Source of the DNA: Rhodocyclales bacterium
GTDB lineage: Bacteria > Pseudomonadota > Gammaproteobacteria > Burkholderiales > Rhodocyclaceae
Length of the DNA stretch: 12,325 bases
NCBI GenBank assembly: GCA_021286885.1
Contig: JAJTBM010000053.1
Coordinates: 1-12,325 of the forward strand
Direction: 5' to 3'
Below the pieces are notes generated by a model. That model did not search any database, was not told the DNA's origin, and saw only the letters and a program-made list of their open reading frames with translations. Positions 1-11,518 of the stretch are shown here, piece by piece. How positions within the stretch are numbered: the first letter of the stretch is position 1; each line of letters opens with the position of its first letter. The position numbers were made by a program, and so were the translations under genes.

Positions 1-770
1 GTTTTGGCGACCCGCTATTCGTGCGTACGCCCCGGGGCATCACCCCGACGCCCCGGGCCCTGGCGCTGACCGGGCCAGTAAAGCGCGTGCTGGCCGACAT
101 CGAGCAGCTTCTGACCCCCACCGACTTCGACCCGGCCAGCGCCGCATTCACCGTATCGGTGGCCGCCACCGACTACGCCCTGCGGGCCGTGGTGGCGCCC
201 TTCATCGCCGCCCTGCGCCCCCGCGCCCCGGGCATCCGGGTGGCCGTGCGCCCCATGGACGAAGCCGACATGCAGGCGCGCATGGAAAGGGGCGAGCTGG
301 ATCTGGCCCTGCTCACCCCCGAAAGCGCCCCACCCGACCTGCACAGCCGGCGCCTGTTTGATGAAAGCTATGTGTGCGTGCTGCGCGCCGGCCACCCCCA
401 GGGCGCCAGTCCGCTGGATCTGGACAGCTTCTGCGCGCTGGATCACGCCATCGTGTCGCTCCAGGGCGGCGGCTTCAGCGGCGCCACCGATGCGGCCCTC
501 GCCCAACTAGGGCGCACGCGCCGGGTGATGGTGTCGGTGCCCAGCTTCGTGATGCTGCTCGACCTGATCCGCAGCACTGATCTCGCCGCCCTCGTCCCCC
601 GCCGCCTGCTCACCGACCTCCAGGGCCTCCAAGCGCTCGAAGCGCCGCTCCCCATCCCCGGCTTCACCAAGCTTCTCACCTGGCACCCCCGCACCCACGA
701 CGACCCGGGGCACCGCTGGGTGCGCGGGGTGATGGCGGAGGTGTGCGGGGTGGGTGATACGCCCGGTTGA
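1..770 (+). CDS. LysR-type transcriptional regulator, 3' part (5' end outside the window)
   Basis: The reading frame is already open at base 3 and begins with FGDPLFVRTPRG, the conserved end of a LysR winged helix-turn-helix domain. The DNA-binding domain is therefore mostly upstream of the window, and the GTG at 21 is an internal valine, not a start. After a linker helix, about 200 residues form the periplasmic-binding-protein-like effector domain: it opens with FTVSVAATDYAL and contains GELDLALLTPE and FDESYVCVLRAGHP, all typical of LysR effector domains. Such proteins bind a small-molecule co-inducer and regulate a divergent or nearby gene. The target and ligand cannot be read here because the promoter side is missing. 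The gene ends one base from the convergent SRPBCC gene. The family assignment is firm; the specific regulator is not identified. Confidence 0.93.
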   Translation, partial: FGDPLFVRTPRGITPTPRALALTGPVKRVLADIEQLLTPTDFDPASAAFTVSVAATDYALRAVVAPFIAALRPRAPGIRVAVRPMDEADMQARMERGELDLALLTPESAPPDLHSRRLFDESYVCVLRAGHPQGASPLDLDSFCALDHAIVSLQGGGFSGATDAALAQLGRTRRVMVSVPSFVMLLDLIRSTDLAALVPRRLLTDLQGLQALEAPLPIPGFTKLLTWHPRTHDDPGHRWVRGVMAEVCGVGDTPG

Positions 771-771
771 C

Positions 772-1284
772 TCAACCCGCCGCCCGCCGCGCCGCCGCCA
801 CCAGCCCGTTCAGCCACAGCTGATGGCCATTGATCATCGGATTGGTCGGGTCCTGGGCCAGCGCCAGGGCGGGTTTGCCCTTCTGGGTTTCCTGGGTCAG
901 GATGCGCAGCCGCCCACCCGAGAGTTCTTCAATCAGCCAGGCGTGATGCACATCCAGCCGGGTCTCGGCATCGTCCCCCGCCCAGCCATGCCACGCCACC
1001 CGCGCCGGCTGGCCCGGCACCGGCGGCACATGCTCCACCACCTGCGCCTCCACCGGAAAACCAAAGGTCGTGAAGAAAAAGCGCACCCCCGCCTCCAGCG
1101 CCGGCCCCTTCCCATCGTAAAACCGCACATCCGCCGAATTGGGGTAATACTCAGGCCAACAGGCCGGAATATTCAGCAAAGGCCACACCTGCTCCACCGT
1201 CAGCCCCGTGACGATGACTTCGTTGGACACATAGTTCTCAGTAAAACCCGGCACATACCCCGCCGGCCACAGAATTTCGCTCAT
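772..1284 (-). CDS. SRPBCC (START/Bet v1-like) domain protein
   Basis: This is a protein of 170 residues. An early segment (NEVIVTGLTVEQVWPLLNIP) followed by WPEYYPNSADVRF is the usual opening of polyketide-cyclase/START-like SRPBCC proteins: first strand, then the helix carrying VW..L and W..YY. Later strands (EAGVRFFFTTFGFPVEAQV, VAWHGWAG, HHAWLIEEL, GRLRILTQET) and the C-terminal helix (LWLNGLVAAAR) complete a helix-grip fold. These proteins bind hydrophobic ligands in a cavity; the ligand cannot be predicted. The frame is open to 1329, but the ATG at 1284 begins the conserved MSEILWPAGYVPGF and is preferred. The upstream ATG at 1329 lacks a ribosome-binding site, and the GGAG upstream of 1284 is also rather distant. 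The gene is convergent with the LysR gene, one base apart, so the two share no promoter. Confidence 0.85.
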   Translation of the reverse strand: MSEILWPAGYVPGFTENYVSNEVIVTGLTVEQVWPLLNIPACWPEYYPNSADVRFYDGKGPALEAGVRFFFTTFGFPVEAQVVEHVPPVPGQPARVAWHGWAGDDAETRLDVHHAWLIEELSGGRLRILTQETQKGKPALALAQDPTNPMINGHQLWLNGLVAAARRAAG

Positions 1285-1350
1285 AGCAGACACCACACTC
1301 CATCCATGGGGCCAGGCCCCGTTATTCACACCCCGACCGCAACGCGGCCC

Positions 1351-2653: not shown

Positions 2654-5600
2654 ATGAATGAGACCAAAGCCACTGCACGCGCCCCGCTCCAGGGCACCCA
2701 AGTAATGAGCACTGTTGCCACGGGCGGCGGTGGCGGCATCTTCCAGGCTCGAGTAGGGACCCTCTACCTAGCCAACATGCTAACCGGGTTGCCGACAGCC
2801 TTTTGCTTGCACGGCGCTCGAGTCGAGGAGCTGCGCTTCGAGGCGCGCTACAAGAACGCCCACACCGACGACATCTACTGTCGACTCACGGACGCGAAGG
2901 GCACCTGGCTGCAACTCATCCAGTGCAAGCGAGGACTAAACGCCACTGCAGGCGATAAGGACTTCATTGACGGCTTGCAAGGTGCTTGGCGCGACTTCCT
3001 TGGAATCGAAAAGAGTCCATTCGATCACGCCTGTGACGTCCTAGTTCTTGCAACCATAGCCCCAGCCACGGGCGCCAACCAAGCTGCGAAGCGTCTGTGC
3101 GAACTTGCTCGTGCGTCGGTAGACCTTGCGGACTACCTGCAGAAGGTTAACTCCAGACTCTTCGACAAGAAACACAAGGACACCTGGGAAGCATTCAAGA
3201 CGGTCTCGAAGAATACATTGACTGGCAAGTACTCGGAGGAGCTGGTCTTCCAACTGCTCCGGCGTCTGCGTGTCGACATCCACGACCTCGGCACCGACTC
3301 CTCGCAGGAGCTCAGTCTCGTCCAAGCACTCTTGTCTTCGGGGCAGCCGGGAGACTCCGGGCAGGTAGTGTGGGACGGCCTGTTCTCATACGTCCAGGAG
3401 CAAGGCATTGCCGTAGGTACTGTGACTCAGTCGACCTGGGCTCAGACGGCCAAGGACGGGTTGCAAGCGGCAGTGAGCCGCTTGAAGTCATCACGTGGGC
3501 TAGGCAGCGTTGCCGAACGTTTGACTCAGCGTGCCCTGCTTCAGCTATCCCTTATCGCGACAGCGCTACCCAACGGCGCCCATATCTACCGAGGGGAGTG
3601 TGCGGGCCGTGTGCTGGCAGCTCTCGACGAACGCCAGCTTGTCATCATTACTGGCGGCCCTGGGGCAGGCAAGTCCGCTGTTGTCTCGGAGCTTGCCCCT
3701 CTGCTGCGAGAGTCCGGCCCACTGTTCTTCTTCCGAGGAGATGAACTGGACGTGCCAGCCCTGGCAGCAGTTCAGTCGCTCAACGGGCTTCAGGACCCGG
3801 TGCTGGGCATTGACACCCTGCTGCGCACAGGAGAACCCACCGTCATCATCGACTCGCTGGAGAAAGCTCTCGAGGCACAGAACCCCGGCGCGCTTGAAGA
3901 GCTGCTCGCACTTGTCCTAAAGAACAAGTCCTCGAGGCTGTGCATCACGACGCGCTCCTATGCTCTCAATGGCTTGTACACAAACTTTCTCTACAGCTTC
4001 TCCAGCCAGGTCGTTGACGTACCCGTCCTGACGGATGCCGAGATCGCCACCGCAGCAGCTGGCAGTCCGCTGGAGGAGATTGTTGCCAAAGACGCCGGAG
4101 TCAAGGAGGTTCTGCGCACACCCTACTACCTGCAGCTTGCCTTCAAGTACGCCGCCGGGGGAGCAGTGCTACCCAGTGCTTCAGGCAACGACCTCAGGCG
4201 CGCGCTGTGGACAGAGCGGGTTGCACCCAGCAAGGGCCTTTCGGCCGCCATGCGCACAAGGAGGCAAACCGCCTTCGACGAAGTCTGCTACCTGCGCACG
4301 GAACGCTTCGCACAGTTTGTCGAGGCGCCTGCAGACGCAGAAGCGGTTGCGGCGCTACTGCAAGACGGCGTGCTCGCCCAAGATGATGCTGCTCGCGTAT
4401 CGCCGGCACACGACGTTCTGGAAGACTGGTCTCTCTTCTTCAGGGTGGAGCGGGAGGTGCGCTCCGCCGAGCGCAACTGGTCAGCGTTGTTCACAAAGCT
4501 AGGCTCACATGCAGGTATGCGACGAGCACTGCGCTCGTGGACAGCCCAGAGATCGGCTGAAGGCGACGCTGACGCCTACTCGCTCTTGGAGGCAGCTCTG
4601 CGGACCGATTCTCCGATTGCTCAGCTGTGGCGCGATGAGATTGCCATAGGTCTGCTGCGCTCGGAGCGTGTCGAGGATCTGGTTGCAAGGCTTGGAAGCA
4701 ATGGCACCTTAAGCAGCGTCGCTTTGCTTCAGCGCCTGAGCCACCTACTGAGGGTTGCTTGCAAGGGCCCGACTTCCATCGACTACTCGCACCTGGCAGC
4801 CGACCCAGCCAAGAAAGAACTTGTAGCCCGGGTTGGGATGGCCGCACCGGTAGGCAAGGCATGGGATGTGATGATCGGACTGGTCGCGAGGGCATTCCCA
4901 TCCCTGCCACCGCAAGCTCATTCATGGGTTGTCCAGCTCGCTGAGGATGCAGTTGCGCACGATGACGCCTGGCACCGGCCCACTGCACGCGTGGCCAACG
5001 TCTTCAGCATGGCTGAACACTATTGCTGGCATGACAACGACACGTGGTACCGCGGTAATTCGGTTGGCAAGCGTTTCTACGAGCTTTTGTGCCGCTGCTC
5101 CGGGGCTGACCCCGCCAAGTTCAAGGTGTTCATTGACGCACTTGTGAAGCGGGTTTCCGACGACCGAGAGGACCGCGACGTCTACGCAGAAGAGCGCTTG
5201 GAGTTCCTCACCAACGTCAAGCACTGCAGGGAGCCCGTCTACTTCAACGCAGATTTGGTGCGCACGGCGTTTTGGGCCCTCTATACCGAACCCGGGCCAC
5301 GAACTGGGCGTCACTTCGGCATGGATGGCTGGGAGGCAGCCATGGGCCTCAGCCAGAGGGTGACGCATGCGTTCTTCCCTCCTTCTGTGTTGCAAGGGCC
5401 CTTCCGGTGGCTCTTGCTCCACTCCTTCGCCAAGAGCGTGCGCTTCGTCGTCGACCTATGCAATCACGCGGCTGCGTGCTTTGCGAAGTCGCATCCGGAG
5501 GAGGTCACCTTGCTTTCGCCGGAGCAAAGCCCGAACGGGCGGGCCCACATCCACGACTGGCGGCTTTGGGCAGCCTATCGCGGCCACTCCGTCTCCAGCT

Positions 5601-7708
5601 ACTTATTGAATTGCGCACTCATGTCGCTAGAGGAAAGGCTACTCATCGAAGCGAAGCCGCAACCGAAGATTATCTCCGAGGTCCTTGAGTTCATTCTAGA
5701 GATCGGGGAGTCGAGCTTCACTACGGGGGTGGTGGCAGGCGTCCTGATGGCGCATCCAAACCTTGTCACCGAGAAGATGCTGTCGCTCTTCAAGTGCCCC
5801 CAGTTCTTCGCCGACGACATAGCGCGTTACGTTGGCGAGGCGAGTTCTCTGGCTATCCACGGCGGCCACGATGGCTTGGATGCCGATAGGCAAAAAGAGC
5901 GCATTGCCAGCAATAAACTGCCGCACAGACAGCAGCACCTAGAGATGCTCGTGCTCAAGTTGCAGATCAACCGCCCTGACCTCCGGGAGGGCATCTTTGC
6001 GGTCCTCGACAAGCACACTGAAGATCTCAAGACCGCCCAGGACGTGCCTGACGGCTGGCGAATGGGGCTCAAGCGTATGGATGTTCGCGGGATGAAGCTC
6101 GGCGAGCCAGTTGATGGCGGAAAGTACGTCCCTCTGGAGATCGCGAACCTGGAACCCGAGCTCAAGCAAGTAAGCGATGAAGCTCATTCAAGAAGTCAGC
6201 TCATGAACCGGCTGGCGGCTGTCCAGCTATGGGTTGGAGCCATAACTCAACCGACTCTCAGCTCGGCCTCGGGAGCTGCAGACCACTTCTCTTCCTCGTC
6301 CGAGGTGTACCAGGAATTCCAGCAACTTCTTGGGGAGGTTAAAGGGGAGGACGAGGCCATATTGCTGGGGCTGGATGACGACCTGCCTTGTGCGCTGATT
6401 CAACGCTGGCCAGCAGACACATCTGAAGCCCTCCAGTGGGCCAAGGACCACCTTCTCGACCTCACCTCGACGCGCCTGGACAATGACACTTGGGTGCACC
6501 GTAGTTCAATGACGGGTGAGCTGAGAGCCAAGACACTCATCCTGCTGGCAAGCGTAGATCCAACCATCCCAAAGCTGCCTGTATCTCTTGCCAACATCAT
6601 TACGGAGCCCGTCTGGAAGGTTCGCCGGGCCGGAGCCCTTGCCATCTCGGAGGTTCTGAGGCCCAAGCAACCTCAACTCGCTGAGATTCTGACCACGGCG
6701 CTCGCTTTGTACGCCGAGGCGCTCGATACGACGATTGGCGCTGCGCAAAGGCGCGAGCGTGACTTCGTCGAAGAGGCAAGAGACGCAACCAGCAAGGCGC
6801 TTGTGGCTACCCTCACAGGCGGGCGGCTTCCACCCCGACCTAGCCCCAAGAGCCTAGCGGCTGTTAAGGAGTGGACGATCGCACTAGATGCCGCCCGCAG
6901 CGAGACGTCCGAGACTTGGAGAGTCCAGGCGCTCACAACACTGGTTCGCCTCATGGCCGACCAAGAAGGCAAGCCGCGAGTCGACCAGTACGACCCAGAC
7001 TACGTCGACTTCGAAGCGCGCTGGGAAGTGGGCGACCTTCTGGCGGCTGAACTACTGGCTCAGGGGATAGATAAGACTCCTGTCTTTGAAGCCCTCGACT
7101 ACTGCCTTGAGGATGGCCCGGAGCTCAGCGAAAGGGTACTGGAGTCAACCTTGCACAGGAGCATGAAGCAGGACTACGCGAACGCAGAAGCCTTTTGGCG
7201 AGTGTGGGACCGTGCCGCAGTGAAGCTCCTTTCAGACGAGTCATTGCGCACGCGCTCTCGGCGCGTGTACAGCAGGAACGAAAAGCCGCTCGCTGTTCTG
7301 CTGTTCCAGTCCATCCAGTGGGAGACCTGCCACGACTTGCCACTCCTACGAAGCCGCCCACGCTTCGTGGCCGACTGCCTGGTTGCGGTAGGAGAAGGCT
7401 GGCATGCCCTCGAACATCTTCTTGCCCTGATGGCTGGGGTTGGCAGGGCAACGGCGGTGCCTTCCGCGATGGGACAACTGAGGGAAGCGATAGCCAAGGC
7501 GCCGACTGACTTGTTTAACGACGGAAGCAGCCTTTGGGATGTTGAGACTGTATGCCAAGCGGCGGTGCACGAACATCGTCGGGCGCTTCTTCGCGATGTA
7601 ACCCTCAGGCAAGCCACCCTTGACGTACTGGACAGGCTCGTAGACGCCGGATCGTCCTTGGCCTTTCAGTTGCGTGACTACTTGGCGACGTCATCACCGG
7701 CAGCTTAG
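2654..7708 (+). CDS. Avs-like STAND NTPase with N-terminal Cap4/DUF4297-like PD-(D/E)xK nuclease
   Basis: This 1684-residue uninterrupted protein is a probable anti-phage sensor-effector. Residues about 20-230 look like a Cap4/DUF4297-type nuclease: glycine stretch TGGGGGIFQARV (23-34), acidic pair D72-D73, and QLIQCKRG with Q90-x-K92 as the (D/E/Q)xK motif. Residues about 310-600 are a STAND/NACHT-type ATPase: Walker A GGPGAGKS (334-341), Walker B VIIDS ending in D400, a sensor-like ITTR (431-434), the RTP..L motif near P490, and the winged-helix signature HDVLEDW (586-592). Residues 600-1684 are mostly helical, with HEAT-like segments such as VWKVRRAGALAISEVL. This region matches no named domain I can recall and would be the ligand sensor. 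In Avs systems such C-terminal regions bind phage proteins and trigger oligomerisation and DNA cleavage. The ATG at 2654 was chosen; the ATG at 2705 (MSTVATGGGG) would also keep every motif. Base composition is less GC-rich than in flanking genes, which suggests horizontal acquisition. The architecture is firm; the exact Avs type and the trigger are unknown. Confidence 0.88.
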   Translation: MNETKATARAPLQGTQVMSTVATGGGGGIFQARVGTLYLANMLTGLPTAFCLHGARVEELRFEARYKNAHTDDIYCRLTDAKGTWLQLIQCKRGLNATAGDKDFIDGLQGAWRDFLGIEKSPFDHACDVLVLATIAPATGANQAAKRLCELARASVDLADYLQKVNSRLFDKKHKDTWEAFKTVSKNTLTGKYSEELVFQLLRRLRVDIHDLGTDSSQELSLVQALLSSGQPGDSGQVVWDGLFSYVQEQGIAVGTVTQSTWAQTAKDGLQAAVSRLKSSRGLGSVAERLTQRALLQLSLIATALPNGAHIYRGECAGRVLAALDERQLVIITGGPGAGKSAVVSELAPLLRESGPLFFFRGDELDVPALAAVQSLNGLQDPVLGIDTLLRTGEPTVIIDSLEKALEAQNPGALEELLALVLKNKSSRLCITTRSYALNGLYTNFLYSFSSQVVDVPVLTDAEIATAAAGSPLEEIVAKDAGVKEVLRTPYYLQLAFKYAAGGAVLPSASGNDLRRALWTERVAPSKGLSAAMRTRRQTAFDEVCYLRTERFAQFVEAPADAEAVAALLQDGVLAQDDAARVSPAHDVLEDWSLFFRVEREVRSAERNWSALFTKLGSHAGMRRALRSWTAQRSAEGDADAYSLLEAALRTDSPIAQLWRDEIAIGLLRSERVEDLVARLGSNGTLSSVALLQRLSHLLRVACKGPTSIDYSHLAADPAKKELVARVGMAAPVGKAWDVMIGLVARAFPSLPPQAHSWVVQLAEDAVAHDDAWHRPTARVANVFSMAEHYCWHDNDTWYRGNSVGKRFYELLCRCSGADPAKFKVFIDALVKRVSDDREDRDVYAEERLEFLTNVKHCREPVYFNADLVRTAFWALYTEPGPRTGRHFGMDGWEAAMGLSQRVTHAFFPPSVLQGPFRWLLLHSFAKSVRFVVDLCNHAAACFAKSHPEEVTLLSPEQSPNGRAHIHDWRLWAAYRGHSVSSYLLNCALMSLEERLLIEAKPQPKIISEVLEFILEIGESSFTTGVVAGVLMAHPNLVTEKMLSLFKCPQFFADDIARYVGEASSLAIHGGHDGLDADRQKERIASNKLPHRQQHLEMLVLKLQINRPDLREGIFAVLDKHTEDLKTAQDVPDGWRMGLKRMDVRGMKLGEPVDGGKYVPLEIANLEPELKQVSDEAHSRSQLMNRLAAVQLWVGAITQPTLSSASGAADHFSSSSEVYQEFQQLLGEVKGEDEAILLGLDDDLPCALIQRWPADTSEALQWAKDHLLDLTSTRLDNDTWVHRSSMTGELRAKTLILLASVDPTIPKLPVSLANIITEPVWKVRRAGALAISEVLRPKQPQLAEILTTALALYAEALDTTIGAAQRRERDFVEEARDATSKALVATLTGGRLPPRPSPKSLAAVKEWTIALDAARSETSETWRVQALTTLVRLMADQEGKPRVDQYDPDYVDFEARWEVGDLLAAELLAQGIDKTPVFEALDYCLEDGPELSERVLESTLHRSMKQDYANAEAFWRVWDRAAVKLLSDESLRTRSRRVYSRNEKPLAVLLFQSIQWETCHDLPLLRSRPRFVADCLVAVGEGWHALEHLLALMAGVGRATAVPSAMGQLREAIAKAPTDLFNDGSSLWDVETVCQAAVHEHRRALLRDVTLRQATLDVLDRLVDAGSSLAFQLRDYLATSSPAA

Positions 7709-7843: not shown

Positions 7844-8179
7844 ATGGAAACAAAAACTGTTGTCACCGCGCTGGCGGCCTTGGCGCATGAGTCGCGGCTG
7901 GGGGTGTTTCGGGCGCTGGTGCAGGCGGGGCCTGCGGGGCTGGCGGCGGGGAGGATTGGGGAGTTGACGGGGATTGCCCCCTCGTCCCTGTCCTTTCACC
8001 TGAAGGAGCTGGCCCATGCGGGGCTGGTGAGTTCGCGGCAGGCGGGGCGCTTTGTGATTTATTCGGCCCGCTTTGACGCCATGAACGGGCTGCTCGCCTA
8101 TCTCACGGAAAACTGCTGCGGGGGTGAGCCCTGCTGCCCTTCGTCACTCAATGCTTCTGGAAAGGATCAGGCATCATGA
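7844..8179 (+). CDS. arsR: ArsR-family arsenite-responsive repressor
   Basis: This 111-residue winged helix-turn-helix repressor controls the arsenic operon. ALAHESRLGVFRALV is the conserved first helix of the family. GRIGELTGIAPSSLSFHLKELAHAGLV (37-62) is the helix-turn-helix with recognition helix SSLSFHLKEL, followed by the wing (SSRQAGRFVIYS). Near the C-terminus ENCCGGEPCCP gives C91, C92, C97 and C98. This resembles the C-terminal As(III) site of the Acidithiobacillus ferrooxidans type (a vicinal Cys pair plus one more) rather than the ELCVCDL site of E. coli ArsR. The ATG at 7844 is the only reasonable start, because an in-frame TGA lies six bases upstream. No Shine-Dalgarno sequence is present because the operator occupies that space. 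The stop overlaps the next gene in ATGA, which points to translational coupling. Confidence 0.94.
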   Translation: METKTVVTALAALAHESRLGVFRALVQAGPAGLAAGRIGELTGIAPSSLSFHLKELAHAGLVSSRQAGRFVIYSARFDAMNGLLAYLTENCCGGEPCCPSSLNASGKDQAS

Positions 8180-8637
8180 AACGTCTGCATGTGCATATCT
8201 CGGTCGAAAACCTTCAGAACAGCGTCCGCTTTTATTCGGCGGTGTTTGCGGCAGAACCCAGCGTTCTGCATCCGGACTACGCCAAGTGGATGCTGGATGA
8301 CCCCCGGGTGAATTTTGCGATCTCCCAGCGGGGCAGTAAGGTGGGGCTGGATCACCTGGGCATCCAGGCCGAAACTCCCGAAGAACTCGCGGAGCTGGGA
8401 AACCGGCTTGAGGCGGCGGCCCTGCCCCATGTGGCCCAGCCGGGTTCCACCTGCTGCTATGCCCGCTCCGACAAGCACTGGAGCGTGGACCCGAGCGGGA
8501 TTCCCTGGGAAAGCTTTCATACCCTGGAGAGCATTCCCACCTACGGGGCGCCGGTGCTGAACATTCTCAACCAGCCTTCCGGCGGCGAGGGCTGCGGTTG
8601 CCCGAGCGTGCCGGGCAAGACTTCTTCCTGCTGCTGA
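8176..8637 (+). CDS. arsI: ArsI/CadI-family vicinal-oxygen-chelate metalloenzyme (probable C-As lyase)
   Basis: This 153-residue glyoxalase-fold (VOC) protein follows arsR with an ATGA overlap and has AAAGGA (8161-8166) as ribosome-binding site. It starts MKRLHVHISVENLQNSVRFYSAVF, the first VOC repeat. Metal-ligand candidates are H5 (or H7), H60 in GLDHLGIQ, and E112 in GIPWESFHT. The vicinal pair C93-C94 in STCCYARSDK matches the trivalent-arsenic-binding cysteines of ArsI, with the same 19-residue Cys-to-Glu spacing I recall for Bacillus ArsI. ArsI uses Fe(II) and O2 to split the carbon-arsenic bond of methyl- or aryl-As(III), yielding As(III) for the operon's pump. The cysteine-rich tail (C140, C142, C152, C153) may bind metal. 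The related name CadI reflects cadmium induction in mycobacteria. The family is firm; true lyase activity is inferred. Confidence 0.85.
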   Translation: MKRLHVHISVENLQNSVRFYSAVFAAEPSVLHPDYAKWMLDDPRVNFAISQRGSKVGLDHLGIQAETPEELAELGNRLEAAALPHVAQPGSTCCYARSDKHWSVDPSGIPWESFHTLESIPTYGAPVLNILNQPSGGEGCGCPSVPGKTSSCC

Positions 8638-8642
8638 GGAGG
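8636..8642 (+). promoter_or_regulatory. Ribosome-binding site GAGGAGG deciding the arsC start
   Basis: A near-perfect Shine-Dalgarno sequence overlaps the arsI stop codon. It lies 10 bases before the ATG at 8653 but only 4 before the GTG at 8647, so the ATG is the better start. The overlap couples arsC translation to termination of arsI. Confidence 0.7.
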
Positions 8643-8652
8643 ACGCGTGCCC

Positions 8653-9198
8653 ATGTCCACTTCCCTATCCACCTCCATGCCTGTTGTACGCGTATTGATC
8701 CTGTGCACCGGCAATTCGGCCCGCAGCATCATGGCCGAAGGGGCGATCAATGCGCTGGGGCGGGGCCGGGTGCTGGCGTATAGCGCCGGCAGCCGCCCCA
8801 CCGGGCAGGTGCATTCCCTCGCCCTGGCCCAGCTGGCCCGGGCGGGGTTTGCGGTGGGCGCGCCCCACAGCAAGTCCTGGGATTGCTTTGCGGCGCCGGG
8901 CTGCCCGCCCATGGATTTTGTGATTACGGTGTGCGACAACGCCGCCGGTGAAACCTGCCCGGTGTGGCCCGGCCAGCCGGTGCGGGCCCACTGGAGTCTG
9001 CCCGACCCGGCCGCTCCGGCCCCGCACCCGGAGGCCCAGGAGGCCGCCTTTGGCGCGGTGTTTGCCGAGATCCTGCGGCGCGTGCACGCCTGGCTGGGCG
9101 ATGCGCCCGAGGCGCTGGATCAGGCGGCCCTGGTCGAGCGCCTGCGTGCCATTCCCATCCACCCGGCCCCCGGAGCCTTTGATCATGCAGCGCCCTGA
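8653..9198 (+). CDS. arsC: Arsenate reductase, LMW protein-tyrosine-phosphatase type
   Basis: This protein of 181 residues reduces As(V) to As(III) in the cytoplasm so that ACR3 can export it. The phosphatase-like anion loop is CTGNSARS (C18 to R24, a C-X5-R motif) right after the first strand VVRVLIL. The two further redox cysteines are C94 and C102 in VCDNAAGETCPVWPG, forming the Cys relay of thioredoxin-type ArsC. The general-acid Asp lies in SLPDPA (D118). The N-terminal leader MSTSLSTSMP is slightly longer than usual; a downstream ATG at 8677 would remove it. The start at 8653 is chosen on Shine-Dalgarno spacing over the GTG at 8647. The 3' end overlaps acr3 by 14 bases. The electron donor (thioredoxin or glutaredoxin/mycothiol-type) is not determined by the sequence. 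Confidence 0.93.
   Translation: MSTSLSTSMPVVRVLILCTGNSARSIMAEGAINALGRGRVLAYSAGSRPTGQVHSLALAQLARAGFAVGAPHSKSWDCFAAPGCPPMDFVITVCDNAAGETCPVWPGQPVRAHWSLPDPAAPAPHPEAQEAAFGAVFAEILRRVHAWLGDAPEALDQAALVERLRAIPIHPAPGAFDHAAP
9172..9175 (+). promoter_or_regulatory. Ribosome-binding site GGAG deciding the acr3 start
   Basis: GGAG inside the arsC 3' end stands 9 bases before the ATG at 9185. The alternative ATG at 9230 has only C-rich sequence upstream with no Shine-Dalgarno match. This supports the earlier start and a 14-base overlap with arsC. Confidence 0.5.
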
Positions 9199-10258
9199 GC
9201 CCGCCACCTGCCAGCCCACGCCGGCCCCCATGAATCTGTTTGAACGCTACCTGAGCCTGTGGGTGGCCCTCTGCATTCTGGTCGGGATCGGGCTGGGGCA
9301 GGCCTTGCCCGGGCTGTTCAAGACCATCGGCGCCCTGGAGCTGGCCCGGGTGAACGGGCCCGTGGGCCTGCTGATCTGGGTGATGATCATCCCCATGCTG
9401 GTCAAGATCGACTTTGGCGCCCTGCATCAGGTGCGGGCCCACTGGCGCGGCATCGGCATCACCCTGCTGGTGAACTGGGGGGTGAAACCCTTTTCCATGG
9501 CCTTGCTGGCTGCCATATTCATACGCGGGCTGTTTGCGCCCTATCTGCCCGCCGAGCAGCTGGACAGCTATGTGGCGGGCCTGATCCTGCTGGCGGCGGC
9601 CCCGTGCACGGCCATGGTGTTTGTCTGGAGTCGGCTCACCCACGGCAACCCGTATTTCACGCTTTCCCAGGTGGCCCTGAATGATCTGATCATGATCCCT
9701 GCGTTTGCGCCCCTGGTGGGCCTGCTGCTGGGCATGTCGGCCATCACGGTGCCCTGGGATACCCTGCTCATCTCGGTGCTGCTCTACATCGTGGTGCCGG
9801 TGATCCTGGCCCAGCTGTGGCGCCGCCGGCTGCTGGCCCGGGGGCCGGCGGCGCTGGAGCAGGCCCTCGCCCGGGTGGGCCCGTGGTCGATGGGGGCGCT
9901 GCTCCTGACCCTGGTGCTGCTGTTTGCCTTTCAGGGGGGCGCGATTCTGGATCAGCCCCGGGTGATCGCCCTGCTGGCGGTACCGATACTGATCCAGGTG
10001 TTCTTCAACGCCGGGCTGGCGTACGGGCTCAACCGGCTGGCCGGCGAGCAGCACAGCGTGGCCTGCCCCTCGGCCCTGATCGGGGCGAGCAACTTCTTCG
10101 AGCTGGCGGTGGCTGCCGCCATCAGCCTGTTCGGCCTGGAATCCGGCGCCGCGCTGGCCACGGTGGTGGGGGTGCTGGTGGAAGTGCCGGTGATGCTGGT
10201 GGTGGTGCGCATCGTCAACCACAGCCGGGGCTGGTACGAGCAGCGGCGGGGGCACTGA
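9185..10258 (+). CDS. acr3: ACR3-type arsenite efflux permease
   Basis: This 357-residue inner-membrane protein, with about ten hydrophobic segments, belongs to the BART superfamily and expels As(III) using the proton motive force. The ACR3 hallmarks are present: LLAAAPCTAMVFVWSRLT with essential Cys C141 in the fourth transmembrane region, GNPYFTLSQVALNDLIM after it, and ALIGASNFFELAVAAAISLFG containing N303 and E306 of the ninth. The first segment begins FERYLSLWVALCILVGIGLG, typical of bacterial ACR3. The 9185 start has a Shine-Dalgarno sequence and overlaps arsC; the ATG at 9230 (MNLFERYL) matches the usual N-terminus of the family and would give 342 residues. This is the last gene of the arsenic operon, with 96 bases before dinB. 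Confidence 0.95.
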   Translation: MQRPEPATCQPTPAPMNLFERYLSLWVALCILVGIGLGQALPGLFKTIGALELARVNGPVGLLIWVMIIPMLVKIDFGALHQVRAHWRGIGITLLVNWGVKPFSMALLAAIFIRGLFAPYLPAEQLDSYVAGLILLAAAPCTAMVFVWSRLTHGNPYFTLSQVALNDLIMIPAFAPLVGLLLGMSAITVPWDTLLISVLLYIVVPVILAQLWRRRLLARGPAALEQALARVGPWSMGALLLTLVLLFAFQGGAILDQPRVIALLAVPILIQVFFNAGLAYGLNRLAGEQHSVACPSALIGASNFFELAVAAAISLFGLESGAALATVVGVLVEVPVMLVVVRIVNHSRGWYEQRRGH

Positions 10259-10333
10259 GTACCCGGCACGGAAGCCCGGGCCCCCGGGGCGGGGTGGCCA
10301 CTCGGCCCCATCGGAGGCACAATAACGGCATCG

Positions 10334-10349
10334 CTATATTTATATACAG
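10334..10349. promoter_or_regulatory. LexA (SOS) box upstream of dinB
   Basis: CTATATTTATATACAG matches the LexA consensus CTGTATATATATACAG at 14 of 16 positions; the right half-site is perfect and the left has G to A at its third base. It ends 5 bases before the dinB ATG and overlaps -10-like hexamers (TATATT 10335-10340, TATATA 10341-10346). LexA bound here would occlude the promoter, making dinB damage-inducible independently of the arsenic operon. The altered left half may make binding weaker. Confidence 0.75.
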
Positions 10350-10354
10350 CCACC

Positions 10355-11518
10355 ATGCTTCCCCTGCCCCGCAGCATCGCCCACCTGGACATGGACGCCT
10401 TCTTTGCGTCGGTGGAACTGCTGAGCGCCCCCGATTTGCGCGGGCAGCCGGTGGTGGTGGGCGGGCGGCGGGCCCTGGCGCCGAGCCATGGGGAACCCCA
10501 TCCCCGGCTGCGCAGCTATGTGGGGCGGGGGGTGATCACCACCGCTACCTACGAGGCCCGGGCCCTGGGCGTGCATTCGGGCATGGGGCTGATGAAGGCG
10601 GCGCGGCTGGCGCCCGATGCGTGGTTGCTGCCGGCCAACTTCGATGCGTACCGGGAATACTCCCGGCGTTTCAAGGCAGCGGTGCAGGCCCTGGTGCCGG
10701 TCATGGAAGACCGGGGCATTGATGAAATCTACCTGGATCTGAGCAGCCAGAATCCCGAAGGCCGGCTGGACGTGGCCCGCAGCCGGGCCCTGGCGCTGCA
10801 ACAGTCGGTACGCGACGCCACCGGGCTCAGCTGTTCTCTGGGCATCGCACCCAACAAGCTGCTGGCCAAGCTGTGCTCAGATCTCGACAAGCCCGCCGGG
10901 ATCACGGTGCTCGGGCGGGCAGATCTGGAATCCCGGATCTGGCCCCTGCCGGCGCGGCGCATCAACGGCATCGGCCCCAAGGCGGCGGCGCGGCTGGACG
11001 GGCTGGGCATTCACCAGATCGGCGCGCTGGCCCGGGCGCCCCTGGGCTTGCTGCAGCAGCATTTTGGGGAGCGCTACGGGCTGTGGCTGCACCGGGCGGC
11101 CCACGGGGAGGACGAGCGCCCGGTGGTCACCGAGAGCGAGCGCAAGAGCTTCTCGCGGGAAACCACCTTCGAGCGGGATCTGCACCCGCGCCTCGCCAAA
11201 CCCGAACTCTCGCGCCAGTTCACCCGCCTGTGCGAACAGGTGGCCGAAGACCTGCGGCGGCGCGGCTATGTGGGCGCCACCATCGGCATCAAGCTGCGCT
11301 TTGAGGATTTCCAGACCGTCACCCGGGATCACACCCTGCTGCTGCCCACCGCCGACCCGGCCCTGATCCGGCGCACGGCAGGCGAATGCGCCCGGCGCAT
11401 CCCCCTCGACAAGCGCATCCGGCTGCTGGGGGTGCGGGTGGGCAAGCTCTCGGCCCCGCCCGAGGCCCCATCCCCCGCCCCCGAAAGTGCCCGCCAGGCG
11501 CGGCTGTTCGACGACTGA
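10355..11518 (+). CDS. dinB: DNA polymerase IV (Y-family translesion polymerase)
   Basis: This 387-residue Y-family polymerase copies past damaged bases. The catalytic acidic residues are visible: D12 in HLDMDAFFASVE, and D123-E124 in GIDEIYLDLS. F17 is in the steric-gate position. Thumb helix-hairpin-helix residues are INGIGPKAAARLDGLGI (203-219), and the little-finger domain follows from about 255. The C-terminal QARLF (381-385) is a beta-clamp binding motif, so the protein is full length. Residues about 38-57, between VVVGG and GRGVITTATYEAR, form an insertion of roughly 17 residues absent from E. coli DinB but, as I recall, common in betaproteobacterial homologues. No Shine-Dalgarno sequence precedes the ATG; the LexA box lies directly upstream. 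Confidence 0.95.
   Translation: MLPLPRSIAHLDMDAFFASVELLSAPDLRGQPVVVGGRRALAPSHGEPHPRLRSYVGRGVITTATYEARALGVHSGMGLMKAARLAPDAWLLPANFDAYREYSRRFKAAVQALVPVMEDRGIDEIYLDLSSQNPEGRLDVARSRALALQQSVRDATGLSCSLGIAPNKLLAKLCSDLDKPAGITVLGRADLESRIWPLPARRINGIGPKAAARLDGLGIHQIGALARAPLGLLQQHFGERYGLWLHRAAHGEDERPVVTESERKSFSRETTFERDLHPRLAKPELSRQFTRLCEQVAEDLRRRGYVGATIGIKLRFEDFQTVTRDHTLLLPTADPALIRRTAGECARRIPLDKRIRLLGVRVGKLSAPPEAPSPAPESARQARLFDD

Follow-up and report, generated by a model that had tools for sequence, protein, structure and literature searches.

Here we describe a gene from a draft genome (80.5% complete) of a Rhodocyclales bacterium, located in a stretch of 12,325 nucleotides, hereafter the window, of contig JAJTBM010000053.1 (assembly GCA_021286885.1). 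It is an intact open reading frame (ORF) with an ATG start, and its single product comprises a Cap4-type nuclease, a STAND nucleoside triphosphatase (NTPase) with a winged helix, and a long sensor of alpha-helical repeats (Table 1). A sequence-only reading of the window had recognised a nuclease signature, Walker A, Walker B and HDVLEDW motifs in one intact ORF, and had proposed an Avs-like protein with these three modules. The motifs are all in place and kept in the family, and the general picture of the protein is supported by the present analysis.

Table 1. Features of the window, with the parts of the STAND gene listed first and its neighbours last.
Feature	Position	Strand	Basis or remark
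Complete STAND gene: nuclease of Cap4 type, STAND NTPase plus winged helix, sensor of Avs4 type	2654..7708	+	1,684 amino acids
Cap4-type PD-(D/E)xK nuclease (effector), residues 1-290	2654..3523	+	
Predicted catalytic residues E63, D72/D73, Q90-C91-K92	2840..2929	+	family alignment
STAND NTPase and winged helix, residues 291-620	3524..4513	+	hhalign to Avs4, Pfam nSTAND3
Walker A GGPGAGKS, residues 334-341	3653..3676	+	K340 kept in family rows
Walker B aspartate D400, closing TVIID	3851..3853	+	kept in family rows
Winged-helix motif HDVLEDW, residues 586-592	4409..4429	+	H586, D587 kept in family rows
Sensor, first part, Avs4-type alpha-helical repeats, residues 621-1240	4514..6373	+	hhalign to Avs4; 8dgf_A by sequence
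Sensor, last part, Avs4-type, residues 1241-1684	6374..7705	+	hhalign of C-terminal end; fold match
LysR-like regulator	3-770	+	recognised from sequence
Gene without name	772-1329	-	
ORF of 220 amino acids, P0002	1510-2172	+	PD-(D/E)xK-like pattern
Arsenic-type cluster and DinB-like polymerase ORF, directly 3' of the STAND gene	7844-11518	+	

The C-terminal region had been presented as having no recognised match and as a possible new class of sensor, with a clear relation to a described Avs type named as the result that would speak against this. Such a relation, to Avs4, is what was found. Residues 621-1240 align with Avs4 by hhalign with a probability of 100 (E 1.7e-39; reversed controls at or below 0.1), and the last ~230 residues align with the last ~225 of Avs4 with probabilities of 93.0-97.1 (E 3.4e-7 to 6.1e-11). 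Furthermore, the fold match of the sensor model to 8dgf_A (from a comparison in which 135 of 1000 chains were not aligned) extends to residue 1587 of the latter, the last one of the Avs4 sensor. The homology spans the whole length of the sensor, and a new sensor class was rejected on these profile and fold matches. In a tree of the NTPase plus sensor, rooted at midpoint only, the window family is sister to Avs4, together with proteins from Haliscomenobacter and Hymenobacter. Sequence, profile-profile comparison, tree and fold model all place the C-terminus as a distant member of the Avs4 clade; the region once called unassigned can be assigned to a known type.

The N-terminal module tells a different story. 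The best fold matches of residues 1-290 are of Cap4 type, and a PD-(D/E)xK core with its QxK motif is present, while hhalign against three Avs4 proteins gave a probability of 0.3, that is, no detectable relation. The effector of E. coli Avs4 is an Mrr-like nuclease, also of the broad PD-(D/E)xK fold. From its kept residues, the window nuclease is predicted to be a DNase. As for residues 291-620, they match Avs4 with a probability of 99.3 (E 1.4e-20), and Walker A and B are intact and accompanied by a winged helix, as in Avs4; Pfam nSTAND3 scores 21.6 bits on this region, under its cut-off of 27.2. No Avs1, Avs2, Avs3 or Avs5 model was among the PADLOC and NCBIfam matches listed at E up to 1 (the presence of a model was confirmed only for Avs2, in PADLOC).

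A protein search returned at least 128 matches at E <=0.001 among 7,993 scored candidates, of which the best 120 of 128 were used, and a profile search added two further relatives (P0199 and P0200). In 106 of the 121 relatives listed (the window's own entry excluded), each of four regions is covered to 95% or more, with identities of 42-94% (54-94% for the 104 that came from the protein search), and all eleven tested residues are kept in 105 of these 106. The exception, P0005, is a close relative in which the catalytic lysine 92 is replaced by arginine, which may reflect loss of activity in this copy or an error in sequencing. The other 15 of the 121 are partial; seven of them lack part or all of the nuclease, as expected from late gene starts or contig ends, and no member with a different effector was seen among the 121.

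The family alignment comprises 123 rows, the window gene being counted twice (P0001 and P0003). Among the rows covering each position, all 116 have E63, D72 and D73; Q90 is kept in 117 of 117 and K92 in 115 of 116 (P0005 aside), whereas K340, D400, H586 and D587 are kept in 122 of 122. Moreover, H586, D587 and E590 remain invariant when five distant relatives are aligned as well. Since the motifs are kept across the family rows, they are not a product of chance. The least conserved sensor stretch, residues ~1241-1448, has a mean conservation of 0.726, versus 0.80-0.81 in the nuclease and the NTPase.

The spread of the gene family is patchy. The hosts named among the matches listed include Burkholderia, Xanthomonas, Stenotrophomonas, Ralstonia, Pseudomonas, Paraburkholderia, Vogesella and Rhodoferax; Rubrivivax, Pseudoxanthomonas and a Burkholderiales draft genome are also among the hosts. 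The gene is found in none of 59 kin genomes, its own apart, and when 369 genomes of the class were searched with profile A1, the sole one to match was that of the window (0 of 368 others). No phage copy was detected by tblastn (E limit 1e-5) over 50,697 phage records, and the C-terminal model has no match at E <=0.001 in a viral structure library. In a search of 72,556 plasmid records, the top matches share less than 60% identity, and nowhere is 80% of the query covered.

Altogether, we consider with a probability of about 0.8 that the window protein is an anti-phage STAND receptor that works as a single protein and belongs to the Avs4 clade, with a predicted Cap4-type nuclease as effector; it is most likely a known kind of alarm in an unusual combination of effector and sensor. 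By analogy with Avs1-4, the resting protein would be inactive until its arm of helical repeats recognises a conserved fold in one of the structural proteins of a phage, the portal being the likeliest; oligomerisation, probably into a tetramer as in Avs3 and Avs4, would then bring the N-terminal nucleases together and switch on the cleavage of phage and host DNA, so that the cell would be killed or arrested before progeny form. The excerpted text of PMC12931631 describes Avs1-4 as cutting phage and host DNA upon recognising terminase, portal or Ksap1. The portal is the best guess as ligand because the sensor is of Avs4 type, and at ~20-26% identity to E. coli Avs4, depending on the region, it should be taken as a guess by analogy.

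Several points weigh against this interpretation. Residues ~1241-1448 are linked to Avs4 by the fold match alone, and the sensor model has a predicted template-modelling score of 0.59, with a root-mean-square deviation from 8dgf of 7.0. The NCBIfam Avs4 equivalog, NF041815, gives 363 bits versus a cut-off of 1500 bits, and the ligand may therefore have changed. Other Cap4-STAND proteins match the first sensor part more weakly (hhalign E 2.5e-12, 1.5e-10 and 1.1e-5), which leaves the Avs4 clade without a sharp border; in addition, the tree program warns of long rows and of unevenness in composition. The three named relatives showed no conserved defence gene next to them. There is some room for the same architecture with a non-portal ligand, in which the diverged arm would read another conserved phage fold, such as the terminase or another virion or early protein. 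The low identity and score, and a sensor less conserved than the nuclease and NTPase, lend themselves to this tentative idea, as does the diversity of Avs ligands, which, as far as the excerpts of PMC12931631 go, include JADA for Avs5 besides those of Avs1-4. Nevertheless, the fold match runs to the last residue of the Avs4 sensor, both of whose ends are matched by profiles. Moreover, Avs4 recognises fold rather than sequence, and would tolerate such divergence. It is conceivable, though doubtful, that the family is an Avs type of its own, in which an arm shaped like that of Avs4 has been redirected to a non-portal phage fold and joined to a Cap4-type nuclease. This nuclease may in addition be the ancestral effector of the whole Avs4-sensor clade; the E. 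coli Avs4 nuclease may then be a later replacement, as may the protease-like N-terminus seen in Haliscomenobacter. The Hymenobacter protein and the outer Cap4-STAND groups of the tree, with the midpoint root mentioned above, have a Cap4-type N-terminus as well.

The remaining explanations are less probable still. A role other than phage defence, against plasmids, mobile elements or stress, would agree with the fact that no defence island was seen around the gene; the patchy spread argues otherwise, as does the fact that the closest relatives with solved structures for its parts, namely Avs4, Avs3, LmuA, Cap4 and HerA-DUF, are phage-defence proteins, and we regard it as unlikely. A two-gene system with the upstream 220-amino-acid ORF as second subunit is very unlikely: this ORF is the nearest neighbour on the same strand and bears a nuclease-like pattern, but a gap of 481 bases separates it from the STAND gene, and across all loci compared tblastn detected it on no contig but that of the window. 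Coupling was rejected, the ORF being found neither in locus L002 nor in L004 (L003, with 508 bases upstream, is uninformative). Finally, the models of PADLOC group PDC-M54A, a broader Cap4-STAND assemblage that would carry an unrelated sensor, match residues 23-422 (E 3e-16), and the N-terminal halves align. Membership is hardly credible and was rejected, because hhalign of the sensor against two M54A proteins gave probabilities of 0.2-0.3, hence no match, and both proteins sit apart on a long branch of the tree (100/100).

With regard to the neighbourhood, Pfam identifies an ArsR-like helix-turn-helix protein, a glyoxalase and a low-molecular-weight phosphatase/ArsC-like protein in the arsenic-type cluster, whereas an ACR3-like transporter and the DinB-like polymerase were recognised from their ORF sequences. 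In a flanking-gene search of 23 genomes (own included), the ACR3-like gene was found in 17 and the gene without name in two. The STAND gene and the 220-amino-acid ORF have a GC content of 58-62%, against ~65-71% in the flanks. The product of the latter, P0002, keeps E67, G94-R95-D97-L98, E110 and K112 in 19 of 19 aligned relatives, a pattern resembling PD-(D/E)xK nucleases. It has no match in Pfam, PADLOC or NCBIfam (Pfam on the 19 members gives weak single-member matches only) and no PDB match below E 0.15; one of its 71 homologues carries a HamA-type (anti-bacteriophage) name in UniRef. It may represent an unnamed family of small nucleases.

Avs4-type sensors as a wider set are found with different N-termini. 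Profile A6, built from six widely spread proteins (window, E. coli Avs4, Hymenobacter, Azospirillum, Haliscomenobacter and Calothrix), matches 15 of the 398 genomes sampled from the phylum, that of the window among them, versus 5 of 398 for the Avs4 model. The E. coli-type N-terminus is present in L007 and L044, the Cap4-type one in the window family, Hymenobacter and, more remotely, Azospirillum and others, and a short one in Calothrix (PADLOC Avs4, 1,422 bits). A plasmid protein of Haliscomenobacter hydrossis (L009, 3110-8077) carries an Avs4-type sensor (PADLOC Avs4, 522 bits over 265-1650) and an N-terminus that matches the PADLOC models Avs2 over 22-215 and LmuA over 14-231. We take this N-terminus to be trypsin-like by its motifs, which makes the protein a candidate protease-activated system. 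Upstream of its gene lie those of a nucleotidyltransferase, a SLATT-domain protein and a hypothetical protein of 347 amino acids. The plasmid protein of Hymenobacter aerilatus (P0195; L006, 3986-9025) shares with the window protein a Cap4-type N-terminus and an Avs4-type sensor, aligning over residues 19-1149 and to the C-terminus, although it comes from another phylum, is ~25% identical and is annotated as a hypothetical protein. Its gene adjoins a plasmid replication gene. L034-L037 and L039-L041 encode fusions of a Cap4-type N-terminus with a STAND NTPase and a long sensor of greater divergence. Of these, L034, L036, L037 and L039 were scanned; all four are weak PADLOC Avs4 matches, and the N-termini of L036 and L037 match DUF626_VIII. 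The exchange of effector genes is common among defence systems, as stated in the excerpts of PMC12799240.

A large uncharacterised branch of Avs4-type receptors with another effector offers a way to test how modular bacterial STAND receptors are, and raises the question of whether an Avs4-type arm at ~25% identity still reads portals and drives a different nuclease. The combination was not found in a literature search whose coverage lacks most subscription papers, and the excerpts of PMC7159879 do not mention the family.

Compared with known systems, the window protein resembles Avs4 (AVAST type 4; E. coli, PDB 8dgf; PADLOC PDLC02169; NCBIfam NF041815) in its STAND NTPase, winged helix and helical-repeat sensor throughout, but differs from it in the unrelated N-terminal nuclease; given this effector and the equivalog score, it is not filed as Avs4 proper. 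The Avs4-type sensor also distinguishes it from Avs3 (PDB 8dgc). PDC-M54A proteins likewise fuse a Cap4-like nuclease to a STAND NTPase, with a C-terminal sensor that does not match. Cap4 of CBASS (6wan, 6vm6) senses cyclic nucleotides, according to the entry titles, by a SAVED domain, which was not found in the window protein. Lamassu LmuA (9hr5) and the HerA-associated DUF protein (9c1m) are separate subunits driven by partner proteins, whereas the window nuclease is fused to a STAND receptor. What stands out, as judged from sequence and model, is the pairing of a sensor of known Avs4 type with a Cap4-type effector.
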